Shown: in pieces, positions 40,836 through 64,000 of the stretch
Layout of the letters: the number at the start of each line of letters is the position of its first letter
How positions within the stretch are numbered: the stretch's first letter is position 1
Assembly (NCBI RefSeq): GCF_024609325.1
Contig: NZ_JANHMQ010000001.1
Location: 1-64,000, forward strand
From: Geothrix fuzhouensis
GTDB lineage: Bacteria; Acidobacteriota; Holophagae; Holophagales; Holophagaceae
Length of the DNA stretch: 64,000 nucleotides
Direction: 5' to 3'
Notes under the pieces: generated by a model
Told to the model about the DNA's origin: nothing
The model's database searches: none
The model's input: only the letters and a program-made list of their open reading frames with translations
Program-made: the position numbers and the translations under genes

Positions 40836-40920
40836 AAAGTCACCCGTATTGCCTTTCACAACATCAGTCTGAGGTCAAAGGTAATGGAAAAAGTCACAAT
40901 GTCTTCGGGATTCGAGAGGG

Positions 40921-43597: not shown

Positions 43598-43737
43598 ATC
43601 CAACAGTGCCTGCCTGGGCTCCTGATCAGGGTGGTTTGCAGGACGAGTTATATGTCGTGCCCGTCTTTCTCTTCTGTGTAGGGCAAGGCTTGGCTACCGA
43701 TTCGGAGAAAACCAGGGGGAGCGACATGCGCTCAGGT

Positions 43738-46700: not shown

Positions 46701-46845
46701 TTCCGCCGGGGGCATTGTGCAGCTTATGACAGGACAGGCACTGGATGTTGTTGGTCCCGTTGTGCGGCGGATCCGAGGCGCGGAGGGCCGCCGGGGTCAG
46801 CAGAACGGCGAGGAGCGCCAGGAAGGTGGAGCGCATGCGGTTCAT
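43738..46845 (-). CDS. 13-heme c-type cytochrome, large exported protein
   Basis: A 1035-residue cytochrome with signal peptide (TFLALLAVLLTPAALRA). There are 13 CXXCH sites, in two groups: ten between residues 35 and about 585, and three in the last 150 residues (CSDCH, CNNCH, CYECH). A cysteine pair near the C-terminus, CSAKCSSSAH, could be an atypical heme or metal site. Between the groups lies a heme-free Ser/Thr-rich stretch of about 230 residues that reads like beta-sandwich modules. The architecture suggests a surface-exposed electron carrier. Its start overlaps the stop of the NHL gene upstream (ATGA). Confidence 0.93.
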   Translation of the reverse strand: MNRMRSTFLALLAVLLTPAALRASDPPHNGTNNIQCLSCHKLHNAPGGTLTTAAGNANLCMTCHTTGSLGVGTPPSTAVGAPYSFTPNDQAVPGRGMPAGVAASGTSHRWNAGPSGRISVPSGKTNSSTGSLTPTGSFTGPYAKTYLITITAPGTASSATFQYQTSDPLTGTLGGLVTGLRASLTGTLLDAGISLKFADGTTGTSFATGDQWYLHVRTDLAVPTNANLRLENGGLMCSSCHNQHSQAANAFDPASRLLAAGSAGRHFQRIDNNQSQMCVDCHAPRNVTAKGGISHPVGSYANKLSKDQISGDWKGPSTALLDADGFVRCQSCHDVHKATTTANGLLLRAEVSSATAGVSPLCNDCHTYATVTTNKGVHFDTAKGVLWPGGKYGSPITTYPAFSYAADAGKRATCVNCHVPHGWPDSRDTTKHYAKLLVDEPSNLCLTCHSDVNTTTPNQLTPTGAVQLLIPDIQKEITKATHHPIERTSGRTVMCADCHNPHKAAAGSHTYGTTADQYRNQIMNGTTVQSGPLMGVDGVDVATWPTWLAPGTYSYSPQPTATKEYQVCFKCHTSYSFGTTAPSSGGGTSVGAFTMAASTTPQTWATGSGTASFTLNSNTVAGTTTSWTNANMKGRGIRRSGTTNNYIVDPSTAYNITSTSLRLLTNFLQNNTSGNYQTRPSAAITATNAVTGYGTSWVSSVVGQYIELIGSGTSSEITAWGSATGLTIAASTVAATPADFYLHPGAKFLSGSTTVTGSGTNWTAAMAGQAIRPEDGTGIYYIVAASPAPTATSLTLTTPYVGTTRYYRYSTATVTTTPVLSYTDLAQEFNPANRSAHPVVVPMNAQTGQVTPTGGLTVTLNPPWNTNKGSQTMMCSDCHNTDGTAAQGPHGSAAQFMLRSFGTGTPPPANWPDVTLSNARQTTTPTNQSWCNNCHPIQSSTNNVHSAGDHSSRKCYECHIVIPHGGKVSRLIATDTSNLPKRYAYLNDNTKIQLTQFIKTSSSNYNKDATGNCSAKCSSSAHPSTLTNSGIKETW

Positions 46846-48248
46846 CGCGAACCCCCGTGCTTGTGGGATTTTTTGGAGGTGCCCCCCCCTCCCCGCGGAA
46901 TCTGGGGCCGCGGATTCACGATGACCCTCGTGGCCGCTTCGAATTCGTTGCCATCGGAGGTCCGGCCGGTGATGAAGACGATGCTGGTGCCATCGGGCAA
47001 CGTGGCCAGGAGCGCCGGGATGTTGAAGCGGAGTTTCAGCTCTGCCGCCGGCGCGTCGCCGACAGCCTGGATGGCATCCTGCTGCAGAGGCTGGGCTGGC
47101 ACGCCGTTCACGAGCACCGTCGAGGCGATGATCTGTTCGGGCGCCACGCCGTTCACATGCAGGTGGCCGACCACCATCTTGGGATGCTCTTGTCCGTCCT
47201 TGTCCTCGTCCCCGTCCTCGGGTTCCTCCCTGAACGCGGATCCCCGGCCCATGGGCCCGCGGGTGAAGGTGACCTGGTCCAGGAGGAAGGCGGCCTGGCG
47301 GATGGCAGGATCGGCGTAGGTATCCAGGCCGAAGATCTCCACCCGCGTGCTGCCAGCGGACACCACCAGCAGGCGGTTGTCGCTGTCCACGGCCAGGCTG
47401 GAGGGCACGCTCAGCTCGCCAGGGCCCTCTCCGAAGGAGCCAATGGTGGAGAGGATCTTCCCCGTGGTGGCATCCATCACCTGGACCATGCCGTGGAAGG
47501 CATCCGCGATGTAGATACGCCCTTGAGCATCGCCGGCCAGGCCCTGGATGCGGCCGAAGGGAGACTTGGCGCCCATGCCCATCCGACCGGGCGTGGAACC
47601 GAGGATACGGAGCAGGCTGCCCTCAGGGGTGAAAACCTGGATACGGTTGTTGTTCTGATCGGCCACGAAGACTTCCCCCGCGGGACTGACCCACAGGCCC
47701 GTGGGGAAGTCGAACTTTCCGGCGATGGCTCCGGCGCCTCCGAACTCGCGTACCTTGGCCCCCGTGGGCCCATAGACCTTGATGAGGTTGGCGGCGCTGT
47801 CGGCCACATAGACCTGGCCCGCCGCATCGAGGGTGATGTGGTTGGGAAGGAGGAACTCGCCAGGGCCCTGCCCCAACCGCCCAGCGAGGGTTCCGTCCTG
47901 GAGGAGGATGGACACGGCGCCGGTTCCGGCCTCGCCGACGAAGACGCGCCCGCTCTTGTCTACGGCCACCCCAAGGGGGCGGGCCAAGCCATCCTTGATG
48001 AAGAGGAGGCGGCCGGATTCGTCGCGGACATACAGCCTCCCCAGGGCTGCATCCGTGATGTAGATGCGGCCGATCGCACCCGCAGCGATACGGGCGGGGT
48101 CATGTAGGCCATTCCGATAGGCCCGCAGCGGCGTGGCGACCGGAGCCACCACGGGGACGGGGGTCTGGGCCTGGAGCTCAAGGCCGCCCAGCAGCAGGCC
48201 TGCGCAGACCAAGGCCAGATGTCGAGGAGTGACAGAGCGGTGACTCAT
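46842..48248 (-). CDS. NHL-repeat beta-propeller protein
   Basis: A 468-residue exported protein. Six NHL-type blades are visible, for example FLLPNHITLDAAGQVYVADS, FDFPTGLWVSPAGEVFVADQ and LSVPSSLAVDSDNRLLVVS. The C-terminal 130 residues form a different beta domain, then a basic, glycine-rich tail (GGGGTSKKSHKHGG). NHL propellers often accompany multiheme cytochromes in metal reducers, where they may act as scaffolds. It is the first gene of the leftward unit (NHL, 13-heme, ResB, lipoprotein, CcsA). Confidence 0.88.
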   Translation of the reverse strand: MSHRSVTPRHLALVCAGLLLGGLELQAQTPVPVVAPVATPLRAYRNGLHDPARIAAGAIGRIYITDAALGRLYVRDESGRLLFIKDGLARPLGVAVDKSGRVFVGEAGTGAVSILLQDGTLAGRLGQGPGEFLLPNHITLDAAGQVYVADSAANLIKVYGPTGAKVREFGGAGAIAGKFDFPTGLWVSPAGEVFVADQNNNRIQVFTPEGSLLRILGSTPGRMGMGAKSPFGRIQGLAGDAQGRIYIADAFHGMVQVMDATTGKILSTIGSFGEGPGELSVPSSLAVDSDNRLLVVSAGSTRVEIFGLDTYADPAIRQAAFLLDQVTFTRGPMGRGSAFREEPEDGDEDKDGQEHPKMVVGHLHVNGVAPEQIIASTVLVNGVPAQPLQQDAIQAVGDAPAAELKLRFNIPALLATLPDGTSIVFITGRTSDGNEFEAATRVIVNPRPQIPRGGGGTSKKSHKHGGSR

Positions 48249-48535
48249 GGGCGACCTCGGGGGGGGGAGTCCAGGCCAAAGGCCGGGATATCCCAGGAGC
48301 ATAGGGCGGAATGAGGTTTAAGGATGAGCAGATGATCTATGCTGCGTAACACGCAACAGTTGCGGACTGCAACAAATCAATCGTTTCTTGAAGGCCCCTA
48401 AGAAAAAAAAACCAGATGATCAAAATCACAAAAATAGATGACCCGTAGTTCGCTTATGGGCCCTATGGTTCGAGGGTCGGCTGACAGGTTCCTGTGACGT
48501 TGTCCGATGCAAGACATCCACGAGGCAAAAAAGCC
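48249..48535. promoter_or_regulatory. divergent control region between the two cytochrome units
   Basis: A 287-base AT-richer gap between divergent NHL genes. It contains the perfect palindrome CGCAACAGTTGCG at 48352-48364, flanked by related words TGCGTAAC (48343) and CTGCAAC (48367), so three similar half-sites are clustered. A regulator could control both units from here. A poly-A tract (AAAAAAAAA, about 48402) lies to the right. No -35/-10 pair is convincing enough to mark. Confidence 0.5.
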
Positions 48536-49603
48536 ATGTTCAAACGTTCCACCCTGCTGTCGATCGCCCTCGCGTGTGTCGCGAGTGCGATGGCGCCTCT
48601 GTCCGCGCAGAAGCCCGCCACCCCTCCCGTGGCACAGGACGAGGTGCTGGCCTGGCCCGCTCCCCCAGCTCCCGCCCGCATCAAGTGGGTGGCCGAGTAC
48701 CGCAACGCCTTCGATGTGGGCGCCAAAAAGAAACGGAGCTTTCTCGATCGCCTGGCCGGCAAGTCCGAGGATGTGATCTGGCTGCAACGCCCCCTCAGCG
48801 TCGCGGTCGATGACAAGGGCGTGATTTTCGTTGGCGACTACAACCTGGGCGTCATCGCCATGGATCCCGCGAACAAGAAAATTTGGGCGTTCTCTGCCGT
48901 CAGTGGCTCTGTGCTGACCACACCCACGGGGCTGGCGGCGGATTCCAAGTTCGTGTTCGCGACAAGCGCCAATACGAGCCAAGTGGTGATCTTCGACAAA
49001 GAGGGACGTCAACTCAGCGCACTGGGGAAGGCGGACGGCATCAAGCGCCCGGTGGGACTGGCCGTGGATGAGGCTCGAAACCTGCTGGTGGTGGTGAATG
49101 GAGACGAGCACGCCGTACGCCTCTACAACCGGAGCCTCAAGCTCCTCAAGACGATCGGCAGCCGTGGGAGCGAGGAGGGCCAGTTCAACTTCCCCACCTA
49201 TGTCTGCATGGTGGCCGGTGTCGGCTTCGCGGTGGTGGACTCGGGCAACTTCCGTGTCCAGCTCTTCGACTTCAATGGCCGGTTCCTCCGGGCCTTCGGC
49301 CAGGTAGGTGACATGGCGGGCCAGTTCGCCCGGCCCAAGGGCATTGCGGTGGATCCCGACGGCCAGCTCTACGTGGTGGACGGCGCTTTCAACAACTTCC
49401 AGATCTTCAACCAGGAGGGCCGCCTCCTCACCTTCGTCGGTCAGGGCGGGGTGCGCAAAGGCCAGTTCCAGGTGCCCAATGGCATCGCCATCGATGCCAG
49501 CGGAGCGATCTACGTGGCGGATCAGATCAACCACCGCATCCAGAAGTTCCAGTATTTGCGAGAGGAAAAGGAGGCACCCGCCTCCCATCCCACCCCGCAA
49601 TAG
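48536..49603 (+). CDS. NHL-repeat beta-propeller protein
   Basis: A 355-residue exported protein (signal LLSIALACVASAMAPLSAQ). NHL blades include LQRPLSVAVDDKGVIFVGDY, IKRPVGLAVDEARNLLVV, FARPKGIAVDPDGQLYVVD and FQVPNGIAIDASGAIYVADQ. It leads the rightward unit, facing the NHL gene of the leftward unit, with which it shares the blade type though not the C-terminal domain. It probably serves the porin-cytochrome complex. ATG 48536 follows GAGG and begins the signal peptide correctly. Confidence 0.88.
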   Translation: MFKRSTLLSIALACVASAMAPLSAQKPATPPVAQDEVLAWPAPPAPARIKWVAEYRNAFDVGAKKKRSFLDRLAGKSEDVIWLQRPLSVAVDDKGVIFVGDYNLGVIAMDPANKKIWAFSAVSGSVLTTPTGLAADSKFVFATSANTSQVVIFDKEGRQLSALGKADGIKRPVGLAVDEARNLLVVVNGDEHAVRLYNRSLKLLKTIGSRGSEEGQFNFPTYVCMVAGVGFAVVDSGNFRVQLFDFNGRFLRAFGQVGDMAGQFARPKGIAVDPDGQLYVVDGAFNNFQIFNQEGRLLTFVGQGGVRKGQFQVPNGIAIDASGAIYVADQINHRIQKFQYLREEKEAPASHPTPQ

Positions 49604-49661: not shown

Positions 49662-50306
49662 ATGAAGTCCCTTCTCGTCGTTCTGCTGGCCGCCGGCTCC
49701 CTGAGCCTGTCGGCGGGCATCATCGGCACCAAGCACGACCTGAGCACTAACGCTCTCGCCGGCCAGGGTCACACCAATACGACTCAGGTCTGCGTGTTCT
49801 GCCACACCCCCCACAACGCGGCTGCCACCCAGCTCGCGCCCCTGTGGAACCGGAAGTTCGCGGGCACCACCCCGACCTTCACCCTCTACAGCAGCGCGAC
49901 CCTGACCTCCACCCCCACGCAGCCCACCGGGGCCAGCTTGGCCTGCTTCACCTGCCATGACGGCACGACCTCCGTGGGCAACCTCATCAACATGCCCTCC
50001 GACACGGCGACCTTCACCTACACGGCCGGCGGTAATGTAAGCAACCTCGGTGTACTCAGCGGGGCTCCCGCTCTTGGCACGGATCTGTCCAATGACCACC
50101 CCGTGTCCATGACTTACCCCACCAAGACAGGCCTTGTGGTTCCGACCGTAAGTGGCACGACGTCCAACGTCGGCGGGCTCCCCCTCTTCACCAACAAGGT
50201 TGAGTGCGCCAGCTGCCACGACGTGCACAGCAACGCGATCGCCACGCCCTTCCTGCGCGCGTCCATGACCAATTCCGCACTCTGCACCACCTGCCACATC
50301 AAGTAA
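49662..50306 (+). CDS. tetraheme c-type cytochrome (cytochrome c3-like)
   Basis: A 214-residue exported protein with four CXXCH sites: CVFCH, CFTCH, CASCH and CTTCH. The signal peptide is MKSLLVVLLAAGSLSLSA. Its build closely matches the gene at 58906: CVFCHTPHN, ACFTCHDGTTSVGNL, TDLSNDHPVSMTY and ECASCHDVH, then a final CxxCHxK. It is probably a periplasmic shuttle feeding the outer-membrane conduit encoded next. A GC-rich hairpin with a T-run follows the gene. Confidence 0.92.
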   Translation: MKSLLVVLLAAGSLSLSAGIIGTKHDLSTNALAGQGHTNTTQVCVFCHTPHNAAATQLAPLWNRKFAGTTPTFTLYSSATLTSTPTQPTGASLACFTCHDGTTSVGNLINMPSDTATFTYTAGGNVSNLGVLSGAPALGTDLSNDHPVSMTYPTKTGLVVPTVSGTTSNVGGLPLFTNKVECASCHDVHSNAIATPFLRASMTNSALCTTCHIK

Positions 50307-50331: not shown

Positions 50332-50368
50332 AGCGGGGGGTGGTTCCACCCGCCCCCTGCCTTTTTTT
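50332..50368 (+). terminator. hairpin with T-run between tetraheme and barrel genes
   Basis: GCGGGGGGTGG and CCACCCGCCCCC make an imperfect stem, followed by seven T residues at 50362-50368. It lies 25 bases after the cytochrome stop and just before the barrel gene, so partial termination could set cytochrome above barrel expression. Confidence 0.5.
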
Positions 50369-50393
50369 GGGCCTCCTTTCCCGAAGGTCTGCC

Positions 50394-52172
50394 GTGAGGT
50401 TTGGAACATTCACATTGCTCCTCGTGAGCGCGGCTACCGCCGTGCAGGCTGAGGACTGCCCGTTGGTACTGAATCAACGGTTCCAGCTCCGCTACAACCA
50501 ATGGCAATCCAGCCAGATGGCCACCACTTCCACCACCCAGGCCATCTATGAGGTGGAGGCGGGCATCCCCATCTTCACGTACCGTCTCGGTGCCCTGGCT
50601 CTGAATGGGGCGGTGGAGTACAACCGCCTGGCCTACAGCAACGAATCGGGTGCTGAGATCGGCCTGAACCGCTATGGCGCCCGCATCAGCCTGTTCCCCT
50701 ACCGCCCGGTCCACCTCTACCTGGACTATCAGCACACCCAATCTCCGGATCTGCTGGGCTCCGGCTCACTAAAGGGTGAGACATGGGGAGCCGGCCTCCG
50801 CTATGCCAACCGAATTCTCGGGGATGTCTTCCTCACCTACCGCCATGGGGAGGCCCGGCTGGAAGGGGGCGCCACGCCGAATGCCTATCGGGATGAATGG
50901 GCCCAGTGGAAGCTGGAGACTCACCATCGCTTCGCTCAGACCCAGGTTGATTTCGAGGCCCTCCGTCAGGATTACGCACCCCTAGGTACGCCCGCCTGGC
51001 GGTACACCACCCTGAACTTGGACACGAGCACCTTCCTCGCCCGCGACTGGAAACTCCGCACGCGAGCCCAGGCGCAGGAATCCGGGGCCAGCCGCTGGTC
51101 TAATTTCAGTGCTTCGCTCTACGGGCCGATCAGCGGCGCCTGGCACTCCCTGACCAATGTTTCCACTGACGCCACCGCGACAGGATCCGTTCGCACGGCC
51201 ACCAGCTTCACCTCGGAATCCCTGGTGTACGAAAGCGGTCGATGGTACTCCCATGCCACAGGGAGCTACGGCGGAGCTGATACGCCGGCCCAGGAGCGGA
51301 GCGAGCGCACCAGTTCTCTTCTGATGGGGGGCTCCTACACCCTGAATCCGGAATGGCGACTCCATGGAGACGCGGGTCTGTCGTATTTCCAGAGGTCCCT
51401 CGTTACCCAGGACGACTCCAAAAGCATCAGCTCTCTGAACCTGGGCATCGCCCGGGGAGGCGATGTGCCCGAGTTGATCCGTCATAGCCTTTTCTTCCTC
51501 AGCGATTGGAACTTCGACCGGAAGATGCGCGAGGAGTATCCCCCAGACTTCGTGCCCACCGAGCTGGCCCAGGAACTGCTGCGGCGCCGCATGCGCCAGA
51601 CCGGCAGCTTCGGGTTCACCGCAGACCTATGGCGTATGAGTGACAGCAGTACCGAAGGGACTTTGGACTGGGCCCGCGTCACTGGCCAGGTCCAGACCCG
51701 AAGTGATCTGGCTTTCTACCTGATGGGCGATTTCAAACACGACAAGGGCCTGACCCAGCCCGGTCTGGATCTGCGCAGCACTGACCTGCAGGTGAATGGT
51801 TCCTACCGGATGGGGCCTACCACGTTGACTGCCTCCCTGGGTTACAGCGATGGCTACCAAAGCCAGACCGCAGTCTCGGCCACGAATCCCGCGCCCTTCG
51901 TGGGGAACCAAGTCGGCCTGAGCCGACACTACTCGGCGGGTGCAACGACCCGGCTCTGGAGGGTGCCGGTCGGCGCACTGCTCCTGCGGTACGATGCGTC
52001 CATGAATCCTTCCACCACCACTCTTTCCGCCTGGGCGGACCTGAGCTTCCGCCAGGTTTCTCTCCGGGTCCGGTACCAGACATCCCGCACCGACGGCGGC
52101 TTCCGCAACGACAGCATCAACGTGGATCTGCTGCGTTGGTTCGATACCATCTGCGTGAGGAACTGGCGATGA
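50394..52172 (+). CDS. outer-membrane beta-barrel protein of the porin-cytochrome conduit
   Basis: A 592-residue protein with a signal peptide (FGTFTLLLVSAATAVQA) and, after it, long runs of alternating polar and aromatic residues typical of outer-membrane strands (LNGAVEYNRLAYS, LYLDYQHTQSPDL, VFLTYRHGEARLEG, SLRVRYQTSRT). A plug-like heme-binding part is not obvious. Length and composition match MtrB/PioB-type barrels which hold a cytochrome through the outer membrane. It lies between a tetraheme and a 7-8-heme cytochrome, with an ATGA overlap to the latter. GTG 50394 is used as start, with AAGG seven bases upstream. Confidence 0.8.
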   Translation: MRFGTFTLLLVSAATAVQAEDCPLVLNQRFQLRYNQWQSSQMATTSTTQAIYEVEAGIPIFTYRLGALALNGAVEYNRLAYSNESGAEIGLNRYGARISLFPYRPVHLYLDYQHTQSPDLLGSGSLKGETWGAGLRYANRILGDVFLTYRHGEARLEGGATPNAYRDEWAQWKLETHHRFAQTQVDFEALRQDYAPLGTPAWRYTTLNLDTSTFLARDWKLRTRAQAQESGASRWSNFSASLYGPISGAWHSLTNVSTDATATGSVRTATSFTSESLVYESGRWYSHATGSYGGADTPAQERSERTSSLLMGGSYTLNPEWRLHGDAGLSYFQRSLVTQDDSKSISSLNLGIARGGDVPELIRHSLFFLSDWNFDRKMREEYPPDFVPTELAQELLRRRMRQTGSFGFTADLWRMSDSSTEGTLDWARVTGQVQTRSDLAFYLMGDFKHDKGLTQPGLDLRSTDLQVNGSYRMGPTTLTASLGYSDGYQSQTAVSATNPAPFVGNQVGLSRHYSAGATTRLWRVPVGALLLRYDASMNPSTTTLSAWADLSFRQVSLRVRYQTSRTDGGFRNDSINVDLLRWFDTICVRNWR

Positions 52173-53392
52173 GGCAGGATCTCCTGTTCAAACGGATCCA
52201 GAGCCTCGCCGTGGGCCTGGCGATGGGTCTGGTGATGAATTCGACACGGGCCCAGACCCGGCCTGCGACCCCGGTGCTGGCCAAGGTGCCCACCAAGAGC
52301 GGGATTCCGATGACCCACGGAACTTGCGTCATCTGTCATAAGAATCACCACGCGAGCTCAAGCGCCATTCTGAAACTCTCCCGTGCGGCGGCGGATCGGC
52401 TCTGTCTGTCCTGTCACGAGGGCATGAATGGCGCGCCCAGCGCCGATTTCGCACCCAAACTCCCCGCATGGAGTGGCCAGGGCTCGGGTCACATGGCGGG
52501 GCGCTTCAGCTCCCGCCGAGCCGAGACTTACGCCCGAACGATTCCGGCCGGCCAATCCAGGGTGATCCGCCTGATCCAGGATTGCTCCGGCTGCCACGAC
52601 CCCCACGGCAAAGAACGCGGCAAACTCCGCATGACCGCCTTTGATACCCGGGGCCAACTTCTGGATCGCCGACCCCAATCAGTGGCCGAGGTCTGCTTCG
52701 GGTGCCACGCGGGTTCGGAGGCGGCTCCCCTCACCTCCGGCAATCCGGATATGGGCCAACTGTTCGGCAAGGGTGTGTCCTCGGCCCATCGTATCGGAGC
52801 CACCGCGGCAGGTCGCCCAGAGCTCCCCAGTCTGCGCACTTCGGCATTCCAAGGGCGGCTAGACTGCACATCCTGCCATGACAACCCCGACCCGGCCGGC
52901 GCCCGGGGGCCGCACGTCTCGACCAACGCAGCCCTCCTGAAAGCGTCTTTCGGCCATGAGAAGGATATGGGCCGCCTGGGCGACCGGGTTAACGAGCTCT
53001 GCTTCCTCTGCCACGACAAGCAGTCCATCCTCGGCAATCAGTCCTTTGCCTTCCACAGTCAGCACATGGCGGGTTTCACGGGCGGAAGCCCCTCCGCCGC
53101 TGGTTCCACCCAGCCCGTTTCCGAAGCGGCGGCGGCGCTGGGGATCCGTTCCCCCCGGGACTTCCGGCCAGGACGAAGTGGGGCCTTCCAGCCTGGCTAC
53201 GGCGAGCCCACCACCTGTGCCACCTGCCACAACTCCCATGGATCCTTGCGACAATCCTCCCTGATCGAGTTCGACCGGTCCGTCGTGAGCCCCTCCTCCG
53301 TGGGCGGGCCGTCTTTCCAGCGATCCGGCCTCGGCCACGGCACCTGCACCCTCAGCTGCCATGGCTACGACCACGTGCAAACGCGCTATTGA
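52169..53392 (+). CDS. 7-8-heme c-type cytochrome, conduit partner
   Basis: A 407-residue exported cytochrome (signal LAVGLAMGLVMNSTRAQ). Seven canonical sites are present: CVICH, CLSCH, CSGCH, CFGCH, CTSCH, CFLCH and CATCH. An eighth site near the C-terminus reads CTLSCH, a CX3CH variant, followed by GYDHVQTRY. There is no lipobox. The start overlaps the barrel gene stop (ATGA), so the barrel and the cytochrome are translated together; it is probably the cytochrome inserted in or docked to the barrel. Confidence 0.92.
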   Translation: MRQDLLFKRIQSLAVGLAMGLVMNSTRAQTRPATPVLAKVPTKSGIPMTHGTCVICHKNHHASSSAILKLSRAAADRLCLSCHEGMNGAPSADFAPKLPAWSGQGSGHMAGRFSSRRAETYARTIPAGQSRVIRLIQDCSGCHDPHGKERGKLRMTAFDTRGQLLDRRPQSVAEVCFGCHAGSEAAPLTSGNPDMGQLFGKGVSSAHRIGATAAGRPELPSLRTSAFQGRLDCTSCHDNPDPAGARGPHVSTNAALLKASFGHEKDMGRLGDRVNELCFLCHDKQSILGNQSFAFHSQHMAGFTGGSPSAAGSTQPVSEAAAALGIRSPRDFRPGRSGAFQPGYGEPTTCATCHNSHGSLRQSSLIEFDRSVVSPSSVGGPSFQRSGLGHGTCTLSCHGYDHVQTRY

Positions 53393-53427
53393 CCTGTCTG
53401 CCCCGACGCCTGTCCCAGGAGCCTTCC

Positions 53428-54984
53428 ATGCATGACGCTTCCCTTTCGCGGAACGGCTTCCCACGGATTGGAATGGTGACCCTACTCGGGGCTCTGGCTC
53501 TGGGTTTCCCGATCCAGGCCGCGCCCGCCAAGCGTCCGATCCGCGCTGCAGAACCTGCGGCGGAGCGCCTGAAAGTGATTATGGCGGTGGAGTCAGGGCT
53601 TTCCCCGGAAGCCGCCAAGGCCCGGATCGTCCGCTTGGAGAGGGCCTGGACCCGGGCCGGGGCGAAGGGACTCCTGAAGGCCCCCGAATGGCAGGAGAGC
53701 CGCCAGGAGGGTCGCCAGGCCGTGCTGGGGAAGGCCTACCTGGGCTCCCGGCCGGGGCATTCGGCCATGACGGAGGACCAGGTGCGCGCCGCATTCCTGG
53801 CTCAGGGCGAGGAGCGCCGGGTGTCGCATGTGCTGTGCAAGACGCAGGAGGACGCCGAGGCAGCCTTGAAGCGGATCCAGGGTGGGGAGGCCTTCGAGAA
53901 GGTGGCGACTGAGGTCTCCACCGATCCCAGCGCAGCCAGGAACCACGGCGACCTGGGCTGGATCCGCCAGAAGCAGCTGGTGGCTGCCTTCGGGGATCCA
54001 GTGTTTGCCGTGCCGGTCGGCGCGCTAGTGGGCCCGGTGAAGAGCGAGTTCGGGTGGCACCTGGCCAAGATCTGGGAAGCCCGGCACAAGACGGCCGCGG
54101 ACTTCGCCGCAGAGCGTGACGGACTCATGAAGGCTGCCGCTGTCACCCAGCTGAAGGTGAAGCGGGATGCGGCCCTGGAAACACTTCGGCTTCGCTATCC
54201 CCTCGTCCCGGATATGGACGTGCTGGGGGCAGACCGGACCACTGAGACTCTGCCCGGTGATGACAAGAAGGTGGCAGGCCGGGTGGCCGGCACGGCCATC
54301 AGCCTCCGGACCCTGAAACGACATCTGGTCGACATTCTCAAGACCATGGGCCAGAGCCACTCACTCGGGGCCGCCACGAAGGCCAGTTTCATGGAGGGGC
54401 TGGCGGACCAGATCCGCCTGGCCGCTGCCGCCCGGCGACAAGGGCTGGACCGGCGTCCCGAAGTGCGGGCCGCCCTCTGGCTGGACGAGCGGGAACGGGC
54501 CTACGCCAGGTATGCAGAAGCCTTCCTCGCGGAAGCGAAAGTGCCCGAAGCCGAGCTGGAGCGTCATCACCAGGCTTTCCCAGACCGGTTCAGGCAAATC
54601 GGCTCACTGCGCCTGCAGGTGCTGGTGGCCGATTCCGAAGATCGTGTGAATGCGGCCCTGAACCAGGTACGCATGGGACTGCCATGGGGGGCCGCGGTGG
54701 CGCAGTTCGGCAGCGCCGAGGCCACAGGCAACCCCGAGCCCGGCTGGGTGGAGGTGGCTTCGCTCAAGACCCTGGTGCCGCCCACGCTGATGCAGCCCCT
54801 CCTGGCGGGCCCCCTGGGACAGCCTGTGGGCCCCATGCTGGGACCCGACGGCTACATGATCTTCAACGTCCTGGAACGGCGCCCCGGTCCTGTGTTGCCT
54901 CTGGCTGAGTGCCGGGACGCGGTGCGGACGGATTACCTCAAGGCGCGCGGCCAGGTCCTGGTGGACCAGAGCCTGGAGGACTGA
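53428..54984 (+). CDS. PpiC/SurA-like peptidyl-prolyl isomerase, periplasmic chaperone
   Basis: A 518-residue exported protein. One parvulin domain is clear (RRVSHVLCKTQEDAEAALKRIQGGEAF, then GDLGWIRQKQLVAAFGDPVF and SEFGWHLAKIWEARH), and a second, degenerate one lies in the C-terminal half (LRLQVLVADSEDRVNAALNQVRMG, EPGWVEVASLKTLVPP). Between them is a helical region with basic and acidic repeats, as in SurA-type chaperones. It probably assists folding of the barrel or of apocytochromes. It is the last gene of the rightward unit. AGGAG lies seven bases before ATG 53428. Confidence 0.85.
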   Translation: MHDASLSRNGFPRIGMVTLLGALALGFPIQAAPAKRPIRAAEPAAERLKVIMAVESGLSPEAAKARIVRLERAWTRAGAKGLLKAPEWQESRQEGRQAVLGKAYLGSRPGHSAMTEDQVRAAFLAQGEERRVSHVLCKTQEDAEAALKRIQGGEAFEKVATEVSTDPSAARNHGDLGWIRQKQLVAAFGDPVFAVPVGALVGPVKSEFGWHLAKIWEARHKTAADFAAERDGLMKAAAVTQLKVKRDAALETLRLRYPLVPDMDVLGADRTTETLPGDDKKVAGRVAGTAISLRTLKRHLVDILKTMGQSHSLGAATKASFMEGLADQIRLAAAARRQGLDRRPEVRAALWLDERERAYARYAEAFLAEAKVPEAELERHHQAFPDRFRQIGSLRLQVLVADSEDRVNAALNQVRMGLPWGAAVAQFGSAEATGNPEPGWVEVASLKTLVPPTLMQPLLAGPLGQPVGPMLGPDGYMIFNVLERRPGPVLPLAECRDAVRTDYLKARGQVLVDQSLED

Positions 54985-55456: not shown

Positions 55457-58400
55457 CTACTTGTGGCAGGCGTCGCAGCCGGTGATGGCGAGCAGCTTTG
55501 GGTTCGTTGAGAAGTGGGGCTGGTGGCAGGAGAGGCAAGTGAGGGGTTTGCCGGTGGCCTTGACGGTGCGGCCTGAGGTCGGATGGTTGGCCACGGGGTG
55601 GCCGGCCTTCTTGTCCTTGTGGCAGCTCAGGCAGAGGGTCTGGACCTCGCCGCGGGGGAAGCCCTTGGCATCGCCGCCGTGGGCTGTGTGGCAGGTGGCG
55701 CAGAGGCCGTCCATCACGGGCTTGTGCTTGGAGACCGCCTTGTTGGCTTCATCCCGGAGGCCGTCATGGCACTGGAGGCAGAGGTCTTTGGGGTTGCCCG
55801 CCAGGAGTGAAGGCCGGCTGGAGGCGTGGGGCGTATGGCAGGCGGTGCACTCGCCGTTGGCCACAGGGGGATGGGGGAAGGCCTTCTTGGCAGCCGCGGC
55901 CACGCCATCGTGACAGTTGAAGCAGAGGCCAGGCATCGCCTCGTTGGTCGCGAACGGCTTGGACGAAGCGGCATCTGCGTGGCAGGTCGAACAATCGCCC
56001 TCGGCGACAGGTGGGTGTGCGGTGGTACGCAGCATGCCGGCCTGGTTCGAGCCGTGGGGATCGTGGCAGGTGGCGCAGTCCTTGGCCGTCACGGGGTAGC
56101 CCTTGTGGGCCTTCTTCAGGTCGCCGGCGTCGTGGCAGGTGACGCAAAGCTCTTCCACCGGCTGGAGGAGGCCCTTGGGGAGCTTGCCGGTATGGGCCGC
56201 ATGGCAGCTGAGGCACTCGCCGGAGGCGGCAGGTGGGTGGGCGTGCTTGGACTTGACGGCCGTGGCGATGGTGGTGTGGCAGGTGAGGCAGAGGTCGAGG
56301 GGCTTCTGCCGCAACAGGCGTTTCTCCTGGGTGTAGTGCGGCGCGTGGCATTCGCGACAGTTGCTGTCCAAGTACGGCTTGTGGCCCCAGCCATCTTTCG
56401 GTTGTTCAGGCTCCCCGTGGCAGGTGAGGCAGATCTGGCTCTGGGGCTTGTCGAGCAGGGCCTCGTTGCGGGAGGCGTGGGGGCGATGACAGGCGGTGCA
56501 TTCACCCGCCTGGAAGGGCTGGTGCTGGGTGGCGCCGGGCTTGGGCTCCAGGTCCACATGGCAGTTCTTGCAAAGTTGCGGTACAGGCTGCTCCAGACGG
56601 GGGGCACCGGGCGGCAGTTTGGCGCCAGGCACTGGGACCGTGTGGCAGTTGGCGCAGCTCTCGGTGAAGGGGGGGTGTGCGCCCTTCAGGATGAGGCCCT
56701 TCTTCTGCGAGGTATGGGGCTCGTGGCAGCCGAGGCAGTCCACCTTCTGGAGGGAACCGGTCAGGTGCTTCCGCTGCAGGGCCTCATCGGCCAGGTCGTG
56801 GCAGTTCGCGCAGGTCTCCTGGATCGTGGGGCCGGCGAGCATGGCCGGACCACTGCCGGAATGGGGGCTGTGACAGCTGCTGCACTGACCGTCGTTCACG
56901 GGGGAGTGGACCACCTGGAACCGGTCCTTCCGGGTGTGACAGACGTAGCAGCTATCGGGTTGTTCCCGCTTCAGAAGCGTGGCCTGGTCGCCGCCGTGGG
57001 GATCGTGGCAGGCGAGGCAGCCACCCTTGCCGGTGGCGGGCTTGTGTTTGGTGTCGCCCTTCAGCAGGCTGTCGTGGCATCCCGTGCAGAGCTTGTCCGT
57101 ATCGTCTTTCAGGAGCTTGGGGAGGCTGCCGCCGTGGGGGGTATGGCAGGCACTGCACTCGCCAAGCTTCACGGGCTCGTGGAGCACCTTCCGGTTCACG
57201 ATCTTCGCGTGGCAGGCTCCGCAGGCGGCGAGTTGGCCGCCCTTGATGAGCTTGGCGGACGCCGAGGCATGGGGCGTGTGGCACGCGAGGCACTGCCCCT
57301 TCTTCGCCGGGGCGTGGGGGATCTCGCCCTTTGCCACGCCCGCGTGGCAGGTGGTGCAGAGCGTCTCGGCGGGCTGCTTCAGGACGGGAGCCGTGGCAGT
57401 GGCGTGGGCTCCGTGGCAAACGAGACAGTCGCCCTGGGCGGCCGGCGCGTGCTGGCTCTTGCCCTTGACGAGATCCTCATGACAGGTGAGGCAGAGCCTC
57501 TTGGCTGGCGCGGTGAGGAGGGCCTTTTCTTCCGAGTCGTGAGGCCGGTGGCAGTCCATGCAGGCCCCGTCCCGGAAGGGAGGATGCATGGATTTGCCTT
57601 TGGCGAGGTCTGCGTGGCAGCCGGCGCACAGCTCCTTGGGCGGCGCCGTGAGGAGGCCCTTGGAATCCCCGGCGTGGGGCCGGTGGCAGGCGAGACACTT
57701 CCCTTCCTTCACCGGCTGATGCTGGACGCCGGGTCCGGGCAGGGGACCGTGGCAGTCCAGGCAGAGCTCCGGTACGGGCTTCGCCAGCTTCACAGCGCCG
57801 CCGGCGGCGGGCGCGTGGCAGTCGGCGCAGGAGCCCGGCGCGAAGGGGGCGTGCTGGCGATCGCGCAGTAGGCCCTTGGCCGCGCCGCCGTGGGGGTTGT
57901 GGCAGGTGGCGCAGGCCTCTGCTTTCAGGGGGAAGCCGCCGTGGGTCTTCGAGAGGCCGGCTACGTCGTGGCAGGTGTCGCACTGGCCCGGAACGCCCGC
58001 CTTCAGGAGGTTGCGCGTGGCGGAGGGATGGGGCTGATGGCAGGCCAGGCAGTCGTCCGTGGCCGGATGGGGATGGGCCGACGTGGTGCGGGCCTTGATG
58101 TCCGCGTGGCAGGAGAGGCAAAGCTCCTGCGCGTCCTTCCGGAGCAGGCGCTTCCGCCCCGTGTCGTGGGAGCCGTGGCAGGCGCCGCACTCGCCCTTGG
58201 ATTCGAAGCGGTGCGCCGGGCGCTCCTCGGCGGTCTGCTTGAAGCCCTTGTGGCAGATGGCGCAGAGAACTCTGCCGCCACCCTCGTGGAGCAGGTTGAC
58301 GTTCGCTGTGCCGTGGGGCTTGTGGCACCACTGGCATTTTCCGTCGAGGAGGGGCTTGTGGGCCGTGGTGGGAGAGGCGGCCTGGCGGACCTTGGGATGG

Positions 58401-58501
58401 CAGTCCTGGCATTTTTTGGGGGCGCTGCCGGCCCGACCTGGCGCGAGGCCGGCCAGCAAGGTGAACAGGAGGCAGGTGAGGATCCGGCGTGGGGAGGTCA
58501 T
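55457..58501 (-). CDS. 42-heme c-type cytochrome
   Basis: A 1014-residue exported protein with 42 CXXCH sites by direct count, about one heme per 24 residues, from CQDCH near residue 31 to CDACHK at the very C-terminus. The sites follow the doubled-CXXCH pattern: a CxxCH with PH or PHA after it, a GLL- or KLL-type linker, then another CxxCH about 20 residues on. Most sites are followed by a second His (as in CLACHRPH), probably the distal ligand, so low-potential bis-His hemes are expected. The signal peptide is ILTCLLFTLLAGLAPGRA. Such an array could be a molecular wire across the periplasm or beyond the outer membrane. It is the largest protein of the cluster apart from the 13-heme one. Confidence 0.96.
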   Translation of the reverse strand: MTSPRRILTCLLFTLLAGLAPGRAGSAPKKCQDCHPKVRQAASPTTAHKPLLDGKCQWCHKPHGTANVNLLHEGGGRVLCAICHKGFKQTAEERPAHRFESKGECGACHGSHDTGRKRLLRKDAQELCLSCHADIKARTTSAHPHPATDDCLACHQPHPSATRNLLKAGVPGQCDTCHDVAGLSKTHGGFPLKAEACATCHNPHGGAAKGLLRDRQHAPFAPGSCADCHAPAAGGAVKLAKPVPELCLDCHGPLPGPGVQHQPVKEGKCLACHRPHAGDSKGLLTAPPKELCAGCHADLAKGKSMHPPFRDGACMDCHRPHDSEEKALLTAPAKRLCLTCHEDLVKGKSQHAPAAQGDCLVCHGAHATATAPVLKQPAETLCTTCHAGVAKGEIPHAPAKKGQCLACHTPHASASAKLIKGGQLAACGACHAKIVNRKVLHEPVKLGECSACHTPHGGSLPKLLKDDTDKLCTGCHDSLLKGDTKHKPATGKGGCLACHDPHGGDQATLLKREQPDSCYVCHTRKDRFQVVHSPVNDGQCSSCHSPHSGSGPAMLAGPTIQETCANCHDLADEALQRKHLTGSLQKVDCLGCHEPHTSQKKGLILKGAHPPFTESCANCHTVPVPGAKLPPGAPRLEQPVPQLCKNCHVDLEPKPGATQHQPFQAGECTACHRPHASRNEALLDKPQSQICLTCHGEPEQPKDGWGHKPYLDSNCRECHAPHYTQEKRLLRQKPLDLCLTCHTTIATAVKSKHAHPPAASGECLSCHAAHTGKLPKGLLQPVEELCVTCHDAGDLKKAHKGYPVTAKDCATCHDPHGSNQAGMLRTTAHPPVAEGDCSTCHADAASSKPFATNEAMPGLCFNCHDGVAAAAKKAFPHPPVANGECTACHTPHASSRPSLLAGNPKDLCLQCHDGLRDEANKAVSKHKPVMDGLCATCHTAHGGDAKGFPRGEVQTLCLSCHKDKKAGHPVANHPTSGRTVKATGKPLTCLSCHQPHFSTNPKLLAITGCDACHK

Positions 58502-58905: not shown

Positions 58906-59604
58906 TCACTTCTTGTGGCAGCTCCGGCAGAGGAAGGAACCTTCCATGGTCGCCCGCAGGAACGGTGCCGTGGTTCCGGGCGTGCCGTAGTTGTGGGCAT
59001 CGTGGCAAGAGGAACACTGCACCTTCGCGCCCGTCACGTTCTCCGGATAGAGGCGCACGGCGACGAGGGAGGCTGCGGGTTGGAGACCGGTGTCCAGGTT
59101 GTCCTGGTAGGTGATGGAGATGGGGTGATCGTTGCTCAGGTCGGTCCCGACCAGGGCGCTGCCGCTGCTGATGCGGCCGGTGCCAGGACTGACGCCGCCC
59201 TTCGCGCTGATGTAGGTGTCGTTGCCACCGCCGAGCGGAGCGACCAGCAGGGAGCCCACCGCCACCGAGCCGTCGTGGCAGGAGAGGCAGGCCAGGCTCG
59301 GCCCCGTGGGCTGCGAATCCACGGTGCCCTTTAGGTCGGCGCCAGTGTGGTTCGTGTTGTTGTACATCGCGAACGCCGCGACGGTGGTGGTGTGATTCCA
59401 GTCCGGGATGAGCTTTGAGCTGCTTCCGCCACCGGAGTTGTGGACTGTGTGGCAGAACACGCAAGACCTGGTCGCCAGGGTCACGGAGTTCAATCCCGTG
59501 ATGCTCAGGTCGTGGGCCGTTCCGTCCACTCCCGTGGCGGGGGGAAGGGCCAGAAGAAGGGTCGGTGCGAGGACGATGGCTAAGGCACGCAGGCAGATGC
59601 GCAT
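58906..59604 (-). CDS. tetraheme c-type cytochrome, paralogue of the gene at 49662
   Basis: A 232-residue exported protein with four CXXCH sites: CVFCH, CLSCH, CSSCH and CRSCH. It aligns with the gene at 49662 over its length (TAHDLS, CVFCHTVHN, ACLSCHDGSVAVGSL, TDLSNDHPISITY, CSSCHDAHN, and final CHKK). The signal peptide is CLRALAIVLAPTLLLA. AAGGAG lies six bases before ATG 59604, so this start is preferred to the TTG at 59619. The two paralogues flank the cluster in opposite orientation and could serve different outer-membrane partners. Confidence 0.92.
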   Translation of the reverse strand: MRICLRALAIVLAPTLLLALPPATGVDGTAHDLSITGLNSVTLATRSCVFCHTVHNSGGGSSSKLIPDWNHTTTVAAFAMYNNTNHTGADLKGTVDSQPTGPSLACLSCHDGSVAVGSLLVAPLGGGNDTYISAKGGVSPGTGRISSGSALVGTDLSNDHPISITYQDNLDTGLQPAASLVAVRLYPENVTGAKVQCSSCHDAHNYGTPGTTAPFLRATMEGSFLCRSCHKK

Positions 59605-59644
59605 GGCGGTCTCCTTCAACCCTGCTATCGGCTCCTATGGGAAT

Positions 59645-59873: not shown

Positions 59874-60929
59874 TCACACTGCGTCTGCGATGGCCTTGCC
59901 CATGTCGAATGTGCTGGCCTTGCCGCCCATGTCGGGGGTGCGCAGACCGCTGGCCAGCACCTTCTCGATGGCGGCCACGACGGAAGCACCAGCTTCGGGG
60001 TAGCCGAGGTGGTCCAGCATCATGGCGCCGGCCCAGATCTGGCCGATGGGGTTGGCGATGCCCTTGCCGTAGATGTCTGGCGCCGAGCCGTGGACGGGTT
60101 CGAACATGGAGGGGAACTCGCGCTCGGGGTTCAGGTTCGCGCTGGGGGCGATGGCGATGGTGCCCGTGCAGCCGGGGCCCAGGTCTGAGAGGATGTCGCC
60201 GAAGAGGTTGGAGCCCACCACCACGTCGAACCAGTGGGGGTTGCGCACGAAGTGGGCGCAGAGGATGTCGATGTGGAACTGGTCCACCTTCACCTCGGGG
60301 TACTTCGCGGACATGGCCTTCACCCGCTCGTCCCAGTAGGGCATGGTGATGGCGATGCCGTTGGACTTGGTGGCCGAGGTGAGGTGCTTCTTCGGGCGCG
60401 ACTGGGCGAGATCGAAGGCGTATTTCAGGATGCGGTCCACGCCCTGACGGGTGAAGACGGTCTGCTGCACGGCCATCTCCTGATCGGTGCCTTCGTAGAG
60501 CCGGCCGCCGATGGAGGAATACTCGCCCTCGTTGTTCTCGCGCACCACGATGAAGTCGATGTCGCCCACCTGCCGGCCCGCGAGGGGGCAGGGCACGCCG
60601 GGCATGAGCTTCACGGGACGGACGTTGGCGTACTGCTTAAAGCCCCGGCGAATGGGGATGAGCAGGCCCCAGAGGGAGACATGGTCCGGCACGCCGGGGA
60701 AGCCCACGGCGCCGAGGAAGATGGCGTCGTGGTGGCGGATGCGGTCGAGGCCATCCACGGGCATCATCCGCCCTTGCTCGAGGAAGTACTCGCAACTCCA
60801 GGGGAACTCATCCCACTTGAAGCGCAGATCATGCTTCGCCGCGGCGGCCTCCAGCACACGGATGCCCTCGGGCACCACCTCCTTGCCGATGCCATCGCCG
60901 GGAATGACCGCGATCCTCAAGTCGCGCAT
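59874..60929 (-). CDS. tartrate/D-malate dehydrogenase family (TtuC/DmlA-type)
   Basis: A 351-residue member of the isocitrate/isopropylmalate dehydrogenase family. Features are IAVIPGDGIGKEVVPEG at the N-terminus, RENNEGEYSSIGGR, VVVGSNLFGDILSDLG and EPVHGSAPDIYGKGIANP. The motif RENNEGEYS and the FPWSCEYFLEQGRMMP segment favour the tartrate dehydrogenase/decarboxylase and D-malate dehydrogenase branch over LeuB. It would oxidatively decarboxylate D-malate or tartrate to pyruvate or related acids with NAD. Divergent to a C4-dicarboxylate-type transporter. AGGAGGG precedes ATG 60929. Confidence 0.88.
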   Translation of the reverse strand: MRDLRIAVIPGDGIGKEVVPEGIRVLEAAAAKHDLRFKWDEFPWSCEYFLEQGRMMPVDGLDRIRHHDAIFLGAVGFPGVPDHVSLWGLLIPIRRGFKQYANVRPVKLMPGVPCPLAGRQVGDIDFIVVRENNEGEYSSIGGRLYEGTDQEMAVQQTVFTRQGVDRILKYAFDLAQSRPKKHLTSATKSNGIAITMPYWDERVKAMSAKYPEVKVDQFHIDILCAHFVRNPHWFDVVVGSNLFGDILSDLGPGCTGTIAIAPSANLNPEREFPSMFEPVHGSAPDIYGKGIANPIGQIWAGAMMLDHLGYPEAGASVVAAIEKVLASGLRTPDMGGKASTFDMGKAIADAV

Positions 60930-61076
60930 GGAACCCTCCTGTGAAGAAACATGCAAATGTATCTATTTGGCGAAGGAATGGGCTCAAATCGCAGTGCAGA
61001 TACCTCTTCACACTATGCGACTCAGGGGTAGACTACGCACCGAAATCCCACCCCATCCTAACCATGGAGGCTCCTC

Positions 61077-62831
61077 ATGAGCCACGAACCCGTTTCCGGA
61101 ACGGCCGCTGCCGGAGGTCTGTCCGGCTGGCAGGGTGCCAGGCCCATTCCCGCTTTGGCCACCCTGGTCCTCGGTCTGATCCTGTACTTCGGACTGCCCC
61201 AAATGGTGTCGGTGCCGGATGCCAAATTCTTCACTGGTCAGCCTGCGGCCCCCAAACCTGCCGCGACGGCGGCCGCGAAACCTGCGGCCAAGCCAGCCCC
61301 CGCGCCAGTGGCGGCACCCGTCGCTGCCCCGGCTCCCACCAAGCCTCTGACCAAGGCCCAGCTGGAGGCCAAGGCGAAGGCGGAGGCGGAAGCCAAGGCC
61401 AAGGTCGAGGCGGAGACCAAGGCCAAGGCAGAGGCCGAGGCGAAAGTGAAGGCCGAGGCCGACGCCAAGGCCAAGGCAGACGCCGAGACCAAGCGGAAGG
61501 CCGATTGGGTGCGCGGCCTGCATCTCTTCGCCATCTTCGTGAGCACCATCGTGGGGATCATCGTTAAGGCGCTGCCCATGGGCGCGGTGGCCATGGTCGG
61601 GATCGCGATCACGGCCCTGTCGGGCACTTTGGGCATCGCGGATTCCATGAGTGGCTTCTCGGACGTGGTGATTTGGCTCATCGTGTTGGCCTTCTTCATC
61701 TCCCGGGGCTTCATCAAGACCGGGCTGGGCGCCCGCATCGCCTACACCTTCATGGCGCTGCTCGGGAAGCGCACGCTGGGCCTCAGCTACGGCCTGGCGG
61801 CCACGGACCTGGTGCTCTCACCGGCCATTCCCAGCAACACGGCCCGCGGCGGCGGCATCGTCATGCCCATCATGGCCTCGCTGGCCCGCGCCTACGGCAG
61901 CAACCCCGGTGATGCCAGCGCCCGCAAAATGGGATCCTTCCTCACCCTCACGGCCTACCAGGTGAACTGCATCACCAGCGCCATGTTCCTTACAGCCATG
62001 GCCGCCAACCCCCTGGCCCAGAAGCTGGCGGGGGATCTCAAGGTGAACATCACCTGGGTCGGCTGGGCACTCGCGGCAGCAGTACCGGGCCTCGTGGCGC
62101 TGCTGGTGATCCCCTACCTGATCTACCGGCTCCACCGGCCCGAGATCACGGAAACGCCCGGAGCGGTGGAAATGGCCAAGGGCCATCTGCGCGACCTCGG
62201 CCCCATCAAGCGCCAGGAATGGGCGATGCTGGGCGTCTTCGTGATGCTGCTGGTGCTATGGATCTTCGCCAAGCAATTGGGCGACCTCAACCCCACCACC
62301 TCTGCCCTGGCGGGTCTGGCGGTGCTCCTGCTGACCGGCGTTCTCAACTGGGATGACATCAAGGCCGAGACCGGCGCCTGGGACACCCTCGTGTGGTTCG
62401 CGGCCCTGGTGATGATGGCCAGCTTCCTCAACAAGCTGGGCATGGTGCCCTGGTTCAGCAAGTCCATGGGCGGCATGGTGGCGGGCAAGGGCTGGATCGC
62501 GGCCTTCCTGGTGCTGGCACTGGTCTACTTCTACAGCCACTACTTCTTCGCCAGCAACACGGCCCACGTGGCCTCGATGTACGCGGCCTTCCTCGGCGTG
62601 TCCATCGTGGCCGGCGCACCGCCCGTGCTGGCGGCGCTGGTGCTCGCCTTTTTCAGCAACCTCTTCGCGGGCATGACCCACTACGGGACGGGGCCGGCGC
62701 CGGTGCTCTTCGGGACGGGCTATGTGGAACTCGGCGCCTGGTGGCGGATTGGGCTCATCGTGAGCGTCGTGAACATCGTCATCTGGGTGGGCCTTGGCGG
62801 CCTGTGGTGGAAGGTGCTGGGCCTCTGGTAG
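61077..62831 (+). CDS. DASS-family anion:sodium symporter/antiporter with a TolA-like insertion
   Basis: A 584-residue membrane protein. The transporter core (from about residue 146) matches CitT/TtdT-type carriers: [13 protein letters not shown] for the first substrate loop, [23 protein letters not shown], and [18 protein letters not shown] for the second. Between helix 1 (residues about 25-42) and helix 2 lies an insertion of about 90 residues: Pro/Ala-rich ([10 protein letters not shown]) then a long KAEAEAKAK repeat, predicted as one charged helix. Such an insertion is not usual in the family. It probably imports tartrate, malate or succinate, matching the divergent dehydrogenase. GGAGG is six bases before ATG. 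Confidence 0.9.
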
Positions 62832-62871
62832 CTCCTACTCGCGGAAGACTCTTCTAGGGACTCCTGAAAAG

Positions 62872-62981
62872 AAAAGCGGAACACTGAGAACACAGAAAAG
62901 CACAGAGGACACAGAGAACAGCTATAGGGCTCCTTTCTGTGTCCTCATGTTTTGCTCTGTGTCTTCTGTGTTCCTGCTTTT
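62872..62981. repeat. long imperfect inverted repeat between convergent transporter genes
   Basis: AAAAGCGGAACAC... at 62872 and ...GTGTTCCTGCTTTT ending at 62981 are the outer ends; inside, AGAACACAGAAAAGCACAGAGGACACAGAG on the left is matched by the inverse of TCTGTGTCCTCATG...CTCTGTGTC on the right. Arms are about 45 bases with several mismatches. T-rich ends suggest it also ends transcription from both sides. It is of the same style as the element at 37108, with another core sequence. Confidence 0.8.
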
Positions 62982-62991
62982 TTGCTACCGT

Positions 62992-64000
62992 TCAGGCGAA
63001 GATCCTCGACAACCCATAGGCGACGCAGGTGGAGACGCTGACGCCGATGAGGCCGGGGATCATGAAGCTGTGGTTGAGGAGGTACTTGCCGATCCGCGTG
63101 GTGCCGGTGCGGTCCATGTTGATGGCGGCGAGGTCGCTGGGGTAGAAGGCGAAGAAGAAGTAGGCGTAGCTGGCAGGGATGAGGCCCAGCAGCAAGTTCG
63201 TGGGCAGGCCCAGGGCGTAGCCGAAGGGCAGCATGATGGTGAGGGTGGCGGCCTGGCTCTTCACGAAGGCGGAGACGGCGAACATGGCGAGGGCGAAGGT
63301 CCAGGGGGCCACCTGTACCATGGCCTTGATGTGGGCCACCAGGTAGCCCTCGTTGGCCTTGATAAAGGTCTCGCTCATCCAGGCGATGCCGAAGATGGAG
63401 ACGACGGCGATCATGCCCGCAATGAAGACGCTGGAGCGGGCAATCTCGGGGGCCTTCACTTCGGTGGCGAACAGAATGAAGGCGCCGAAGGCCAGCATGA
63501 TGACCTGCACCACCGTGGTCATGGGGATGGGCTTGCCGTTGGCCATGGGCAGCAGCCCGGGCTTGAGGGCGATGAGCACGATGGTGAGGACACCAGCGAA
63601 GAAGAGGCCCACGGAGAGCTTGGCCTTGAAGGGGATCACCTTGTCCAGGGTGGTGACGTCGCCTTCCAGGCCCTTGGCGAAGTCGGGATCCTTCATGCGC
63701 TCGAGGAACTCGAGGTCCTGGTCCAGCTCCTTGCCGCGGTTGAAGCTCCAGGCTGCAGCGGCCAGCACGCCGATGATGCCGGCCGGCAGGGTGATGCGCA
63801 CGATGTCGAAAAGACCTACCGGGTGGCCGTTCTTGGCGGCCATGGCCAGGAAGGTGGTGACGGCGGCGGCCACGGGACTGGCGGTGATGCCCATCTGGGA
63901 GGCGACGCTGGAGATGGCCATGGGGCGCTCGGGCCGGATGCGGGTCTTGAGGGCCACGTCGGAGATGACCGGCAGCAGCGCGTAGACCGCGTGCCCGGTG
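62992..64000 (-). CDS. anaerobic C4-dicarboxylate transporter, DcuA/DcuB type (partial, N-terminus outside the window)
   Basis: The C-terminal 336 codons of a Dcu carrier are visible; the frame stays open to the right edge, where the residues read AVYALLPVISDV before ALKTRIRPERPMAISSVASQMGITASPVAAAV, the conserved Dcu block. Membrane helices follow (IGVLAAAAWSF, LSVGLFFAGVLTIVLIAL, FGAFILFATEV) and a cytoplasmic loop. The protein exchanges fumarate for succinate (or imports aspartate) during anaerobic fumarate respiration. Next to the DASS carrier and the TtuC-type dehydrogenase it completes a dicarboxylate-use region. Confidence 0.92.
   Translation of the reverse strand, partial: TGHAVYALLPVISDVALKTRIRPERPMAISSVASQMGITASPVAAAVTTFLAMAAKNGHPVGLFDIVRITLPAGIIGVLAAAAWSFNRGKELDQDLEFLERMKDPDFAKGLEGDVTTLDKVIPFKAKLSVGLFFAGVLTIVLIALKPGLLPMANGKPIPMTTVVQVIMLAFGAFILFATEVKAPEIARSSVFIAGMIAVVSIFGIAWMSETFIKANEGYLVAHIKAMVQVAPWTFALAMFAVSAFVKSQAATLTIMLPFGYALGLPTNLLLGLIPASYAYFFFAFYPSDLAAINMDRTGTTRIGKYLLNHSFMIPGLIGVSVSTCVAYGLSRIFA

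Follow-up and report, generated by a model that had tools for sequence, protein, structure and literature searches.

A 42-heme cytochrome of Geothrix fuzhouensis that very probably unites the 26-heme and 16-heme proteins of an osc-type operon in a single chain

The window, by which is meant the whole 64,000-nucleotide stretch of Geothrix fuzhouensis DNA analysed here, harbors a 42-heme cytochrome c gene at 55457-58501 on the minus strand. The reverse complement of this interval is a single open reading frame of 1014 residues with an N-terminal signal peptide, recognized by eye, and 42 CXXCH motifs; CXXCH is absent from the remaining five frames. An earlier note on this DNA had given the same count, without a strand, and had described motifs running from the signal peptide to the last five residues. 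The recount agrees on both points, with the first motif at residue 31 and the last at residues 1009-1013. The motifs are spaced 20-32 residues apart, mainly 22-25, and 84 of the 85 cysteines lie within them, while 500 shuffles of the protein gave a mean of 0.68 motifs and a maximum of 5. In Pfam, Paired_CXXCH_1 is matched over 21 stretches and all matches are to multiheme cytochrome models, and domain searches revealed no surface domain, lipobox or binding domain. Two NCBIfam decaheme models, DmsE and GSU2203, also exceed their cut-offs (409 versus 192 and 329 versus 325 bits, respectively), and automatic annotation of the product is therefore likely to be wrong. The decaheme identity was rejected because the cut-offs are passed only by summing 8-11 stretches of the 42-heme repeat; ten hemes in a single domain, as these families would have, are not found in this protein.

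The neighboring genes encode further cytochromes together with proteins for their maturation and folding. On the minus strand lie genes for a CcsA-like cytochrome c assembly protein (40921-42411, PF01578), a ResB-like (CcsB) cytochrome c maturation protein (42281-43603, PF05140) and a 13-heme cytochrome of 1035 residues with long non-heme stretches (43738-46845). Beside the CcsA/ResB genes, at 39375-40859 on the same strand, is a B12-binding radical SAM protein whose position is kept in several relatives. Two NHL-repeat beta propellers follow, at 46842-48302 (minus strand) and 48494-49603 (plus strand). The plus strand then encodes a tetraheme homologue of the OmcE nanowire subunit (49662-50306; 7tfs_A, E 6e-36, full length), a secreted 610-residue putative outer-membrane beta barrel (50340-52172), a cytochrome c with seven CXXCH motifs and Paired_CXXCH_1 matches (52136-53392), and a PpiC-type peptidyl-prolyl isomerase (PPIase) with Rotamase domains (53389-54984), which converges on the 42-heme gene. 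The barrel is proposed from the pattern of the sequence only; this protein has no Pfam or PDB match, and an AlphaFold model from four sequences was discarded at a pLDDT of 31. On the other side of the 42-heme gene, a second OmcE homologue lies at 58906-59619 on the minus strand (9yuq_N, E 5e-24; 7tfs_A, E 6e-22, full length). Both flanking tetrahemes thus combine four hemes with full-length homology to 7tfs, whereas the 42-heme protein itself did not match OmcE in PDB searches. No MtrB or MtrC homologue was matched in the cluster, whose gene order is mostly conserved among relatives. Beyond it, at 59874-63957, are a tartrate-dehydrogenase-like gene, a DASS-type (Na_sulph_symp) carrier and a DcuA/DcuB-type transporter, the last matching only the C-terminal two thirds of its model.

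Within the genus the number of hemes is nearly invariant. Named relatives of the protein, at 82-87% identity, occur in Geothrix paludis, G. terrae, G. fermentans DSM 14018 and Geothrix sp. SG200. Among 11 same-genus sequences, the window's included and reaching down to 57% identity, ten have 42 hemes and one has 43, and the count of 42 is therefore biological; the earlier note had proposed looking for the same count in relatives, and it is indeed found there. Heme 26 is missing from its usual place in two relatives, in which a new CXXCH has arisen in the same linker, only a few residues from the old site, so that the total is still 42. The gain and loss of sites around heme 26 (residues 600-644 of the window protein) takes place inside the fusion linker at three loci (L026, L027 and L028), one of which has both heme-26 sites, giving 43 hemes, and two the new site only. 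In two genomes of the genus the cluster is present as two diverged copies (L063 and L064 in G015:C3:57001-97000, about 30 kb apart, and L061 and L062 in G017), every copy with its own 42-heme gene, these being ~57% and 64-69% identical to that of the window.

A wider homologue search, covering the Acidobacteriota and the order of a Desulfuromonadales MAG, revealed many loci in which the homologous sequence is divided into two adjacent open reading frames. Every complete split pair found has 26 and then 16 hemes, in frames that overlap or lie a few bases apart, and the complete fused forms have 42 hemes or, once, 43. When 13 distinct split pairs were concatenated and aligned with 17 fused proteins, all 42 heme columns were common to every split pair and to 14 of the fused proteins, the three exceptions being the two heme-26 shifts and one sequence that ends at a contig end. 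The split junctions all map to residue 628/629 of the window protein, in the linker that separates heme 26, at residue 616, from heme 27, at residue 644. This linker, at 23-46 residues, is the inter-heme stretch most variable in length. The N-terminal half (residues 1-628; 56618-58501, minus strand) is thereby equated, column by column across the 13 split pairs, with a 26-heme gene of the OscI type that stands separately elsewhere, and the C-terminal half (residues 629-1014; 55457-56617, minus strand) with a separate 16-heme gene of the OscJ type. The aligned columns and the position of the junction point either to a fusion that produced the 42-heme protein or to a fission that produced the split form, and we are highly confident that the open reading frame joins in one chain the 26-heme and 16-heme cytochromes of the oscH-oscI-oscJ operon type. 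The earlier description of a protein with no other domain is thus right in that only multiheme models match, but it had missed that two proteins are joined in the chain. A tree of the two forms requires two changes between fused and split, and a single fusion origin may still apply.

Several further matches differ in kind. Proteins of 21, 23 or 25 hemes were found at five loci (L091, L104, L106, L108 and L109), where the sequence examined shows no 16-heme gene beside them, and these are taken as related but distinct; the cytochromes of L106, L108, L109 and L104, of 657-696 residues with 23 or 25 hemes, possibly form a sister family. In a Desulfuromonadales MAG, a 39-heme open reading frame ended by the contig edge (L055:9122-14520) consists of a near-perfect 23-residue repeat and lies beside a 24-heme frame. 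It was rejected as an orthologue because the repeat is of a different kind and the similarity tracks motif spacing, and it represents a separate giant cytochrome family, the tandem repeat of which looks recent.

The divided form of the protein belongs to an operon type that has been described before. In G. sulfurreducens, GSU2494 carries 16 hemes. GSU2495 (26 hemes) has been named oscI and GSU2494 oscJ, both in an omcS-companion operon and both listed as periplasmic (PMC13194489, PMC12977616), with the osc block extending from GSU2500 to GSU2493 (PMC12977616). A core operon of a six-bladed propeller, a 16-heme protein, a 26-heme protein and a PPIase is found in SEEP-SRB1, Desulfuromonadales and others, where the products were judged to be soluble and periplasmic (Skennerton et al. 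2017, PMC5539420). The window shares with this operon the order of 26 and then 16 hemes, seen in the 42 columns aligned with the 13 split pairs, neighboring PPIase and propeller genes (53389-54984 and 46842-49603), and nanowire-type cytochromes nearby. Its PPIase is matched by profile to the PPIase genes beside 26-heme genes and is the equivalent of the split-operon enzyme, and its propellers likewise match by profile those of the split loci. Among the split loci themselves, a PPIase frame adjoins the 26-heme gene in most, and in many the gene after the 16-heme one encodes an NHL propeller. However, the window differs from the operon in gene order, in the fusion of the two cytochromes into one chain, in having OmcE-type tetrahemes in place of OmcS, and in a PPIase that lies convergently on the opposite strand. 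The osc-type assignment is probable and rests on architecture and synteny.

The hemes appear to be matched by an equal number of ligands. A second histidine or a PH had been claimed to follow nearly every site, which overstates the case, as a histidine is found within the next four residues at only 19 of the 42. The window protein has 45 histidines outside the motifs. An alignment of 29 sequences, fused and split, shows 39 of these positions to be invariant and three more to be kept in 69-90%, making 42 in total, the same as the number of hemes. As a rule there is one conserved non-motif histidine in each inter-heme gap; for hemes 9, 26 and 35, however, the preceding gap holds two and the following gap none. 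Because these 42 other histidines are conserved, at about one per heme, bis-His coordination is likely at all hemes despite the figure of 19, and the earlier suggestion that the hemes can be so coordinated is supported. So many redox centers on one chain, in a cluster with 70 CXXCH motifs in a genome of 353 pattern matches (143 in a reversed control), could also suggest that the protein is a periplasmic electron store, or capacitor, and not a directed path. We regard this as improbable, as the heme number is unchanging, being kept even where heme 26 shifts, and storage would have no need of a barrel and a filament as partners.

The two halves also resemble each other. In a self-comparison, heme-centered profiles match best when the chain is shifted by 26 hemes, which pairs hemes 1-16 with 27-42; shifts of 2 and 17 match as well. 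The 26-heme and 16-heme halves therefore look like ancient duplicates. Both contain a stretch resembling MtrA (6r2q_A), the decaheme of MtrCAB (PDB 6r2q), a dense bis-His chain such as is predicted for the window protein, but with 10 hemes over 80 Å in comparison with 42. The copy of the PDB that was used misnames this MtrA chain as cystathionine beta-synthase. An AlphaFold model of the 42-heme protein built from a set of six sequences that included the distant repeat protein of L055 was discarded at a pLDDT of 28. Published geometry, of 47 Å per 6 hemes in OmcS, 34 Å per 4 in OmcE and 58 Å per 8 in OmcZ, together with the ten hemes over 80 Å of MtrA, would give a putative single-file chain of 42 hemes a length of ~31-36 nm (7.3-8.5 Å per heme). 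The Gram-negative periplasm is about 20-30 nm in width, which such a chain would be long enough to cross if it is single file and extended.

The distribution of the genes ties the 42-heme protein to the barrel and the OmcE-like cytochromes. The 42-heme gene is present in 9 of 47 Geothrix genomes, the barrel gene in exactly the same 9, and OmcE-like genes in these and in one 72%-complete genome, and the three behave as one accessory module. As the genes are linked, their presence in the same 9 genomes reflects shared inheritance and not independent association. The OmcE-like gene in the 72%-complete genome (G011:C78:5566-6210), where neither the 42-heme gene nor the barrel was found, may be due to incompleteness or may be a genuine exception. 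An acidobacterial split locus (L140) encodes a homologue of OmcS (E 2e-92), and the hexaheme neighbors at two further loci (L136 and L139) have no PDB match.

The earlier note had pictured one of the larger arrays, which would either span the periplasm or itself leave the cell as a wire. The array is large, although its size alone is unexceptional, since outer-surface cytochromes of 27 and 34 hemes are known from Geobacter metallireducens. These OmcN/OmcO-type proteins of 27-34 hemes share with the window protein a very high heme number and a link to extracellular electron transfer, but they are assigned to the outer surface, and one of them has an Ig-like domain (PMC10989804). Together with the size of the protein, they are the argument that it could act as an external wire or surface contact, a role that we consider very unlikely: the filament subunits are separately encoded in the same cluster as OmcE-homologous tetrahemes, the domain searches gave no sign of surface attachment, and the split homologues are treated as soluble and periplasmic (PMC5539420, PMC13194489). 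What finds support in the proposed function is a large bis-His array serving extracellular electron transfer.

A role in assembly deserves more attention. The osc operon is tied to the making of OmcS nanowires, with OscH proposed for folding and OscE-G for secretion and OscD linked to filament morphology (PMC13194489; Shen et al. 2025, as cited there and in PMC12977616). Since a PPIase and propellers also adjoin the 42-heme gene, its product could mainly nucleate, anchor or help to secrete the OmcE-type filament, with electron transfer being secondary. We think this doubtful, as 42 precisely conserved hemes with 42 conserved ligands favor electron transfer and no assembly role for oscI or oscJ was found in the literature searched.

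From the signal peptide we infer that the 42-heme protein is periplasmic and, because its gene lies among those of filament cytochromes, it probably passes electrons between respiration and the filaments. The protein would be exported, have its hemes attached and fold in the periplasm as a bis-His heme chain, with the PPIase and propellers aiding the folding and export of the cytochromes. Its donors may be inner-membrane quinol-linked proteins or small periplasmic cytochromes, and electrons would be exchanged with the outer-membrane barrel, which in turn would join OmcE-like filaments outside. The flow could serve outward respiration or electron uptake. Uptake has been suggested for the 26-heme and 16-heme homologues, which four species were reported not to express while respiring metals, and high-current Geobacter strains carry a frameshift in oscJ (PMC13194489); the pair is therefore not always needed for outward transfer. 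That the protein is a conduit from respiration to the barrel and filaments is, in our judgment, evenly poised, and the overall explanation, comprising fusion, osc-type identity and a periplasmic electron conduit, is reasonably probable. A stricter version, in which all 42 hemes line up without a break in a chain of set length (about 31-36 nm) from the inner membrane across the periplasm to the barrel and the base of the OmcE-type nanowire, without diffusible shuttles, and in which the total of 42, fused or split, is a length setting matched to the envelope, is speculative and on balance unlikely.

The operon type was already known, and the fusion, the constant 42, the match with 42 histidines and the pairing with OmcE are not described within the literature searched. 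A current review lists the charging and anchoring of cytochrome nanowires as an open question (PMC12307469). The constant 42 and the 42 matching ligands make the idea of a fixed length directly testable, and the fusion offers a single structural target of about 130 kDa. Filaments of two unrelated types accompany the module, OmcE-like ones in Geothrix and OmcS-like ones in another acidobacterium. That the 26-heme and 16-heme proteins occur naturally as one chain implies that they work at a common site and in a 1:1 ratio.
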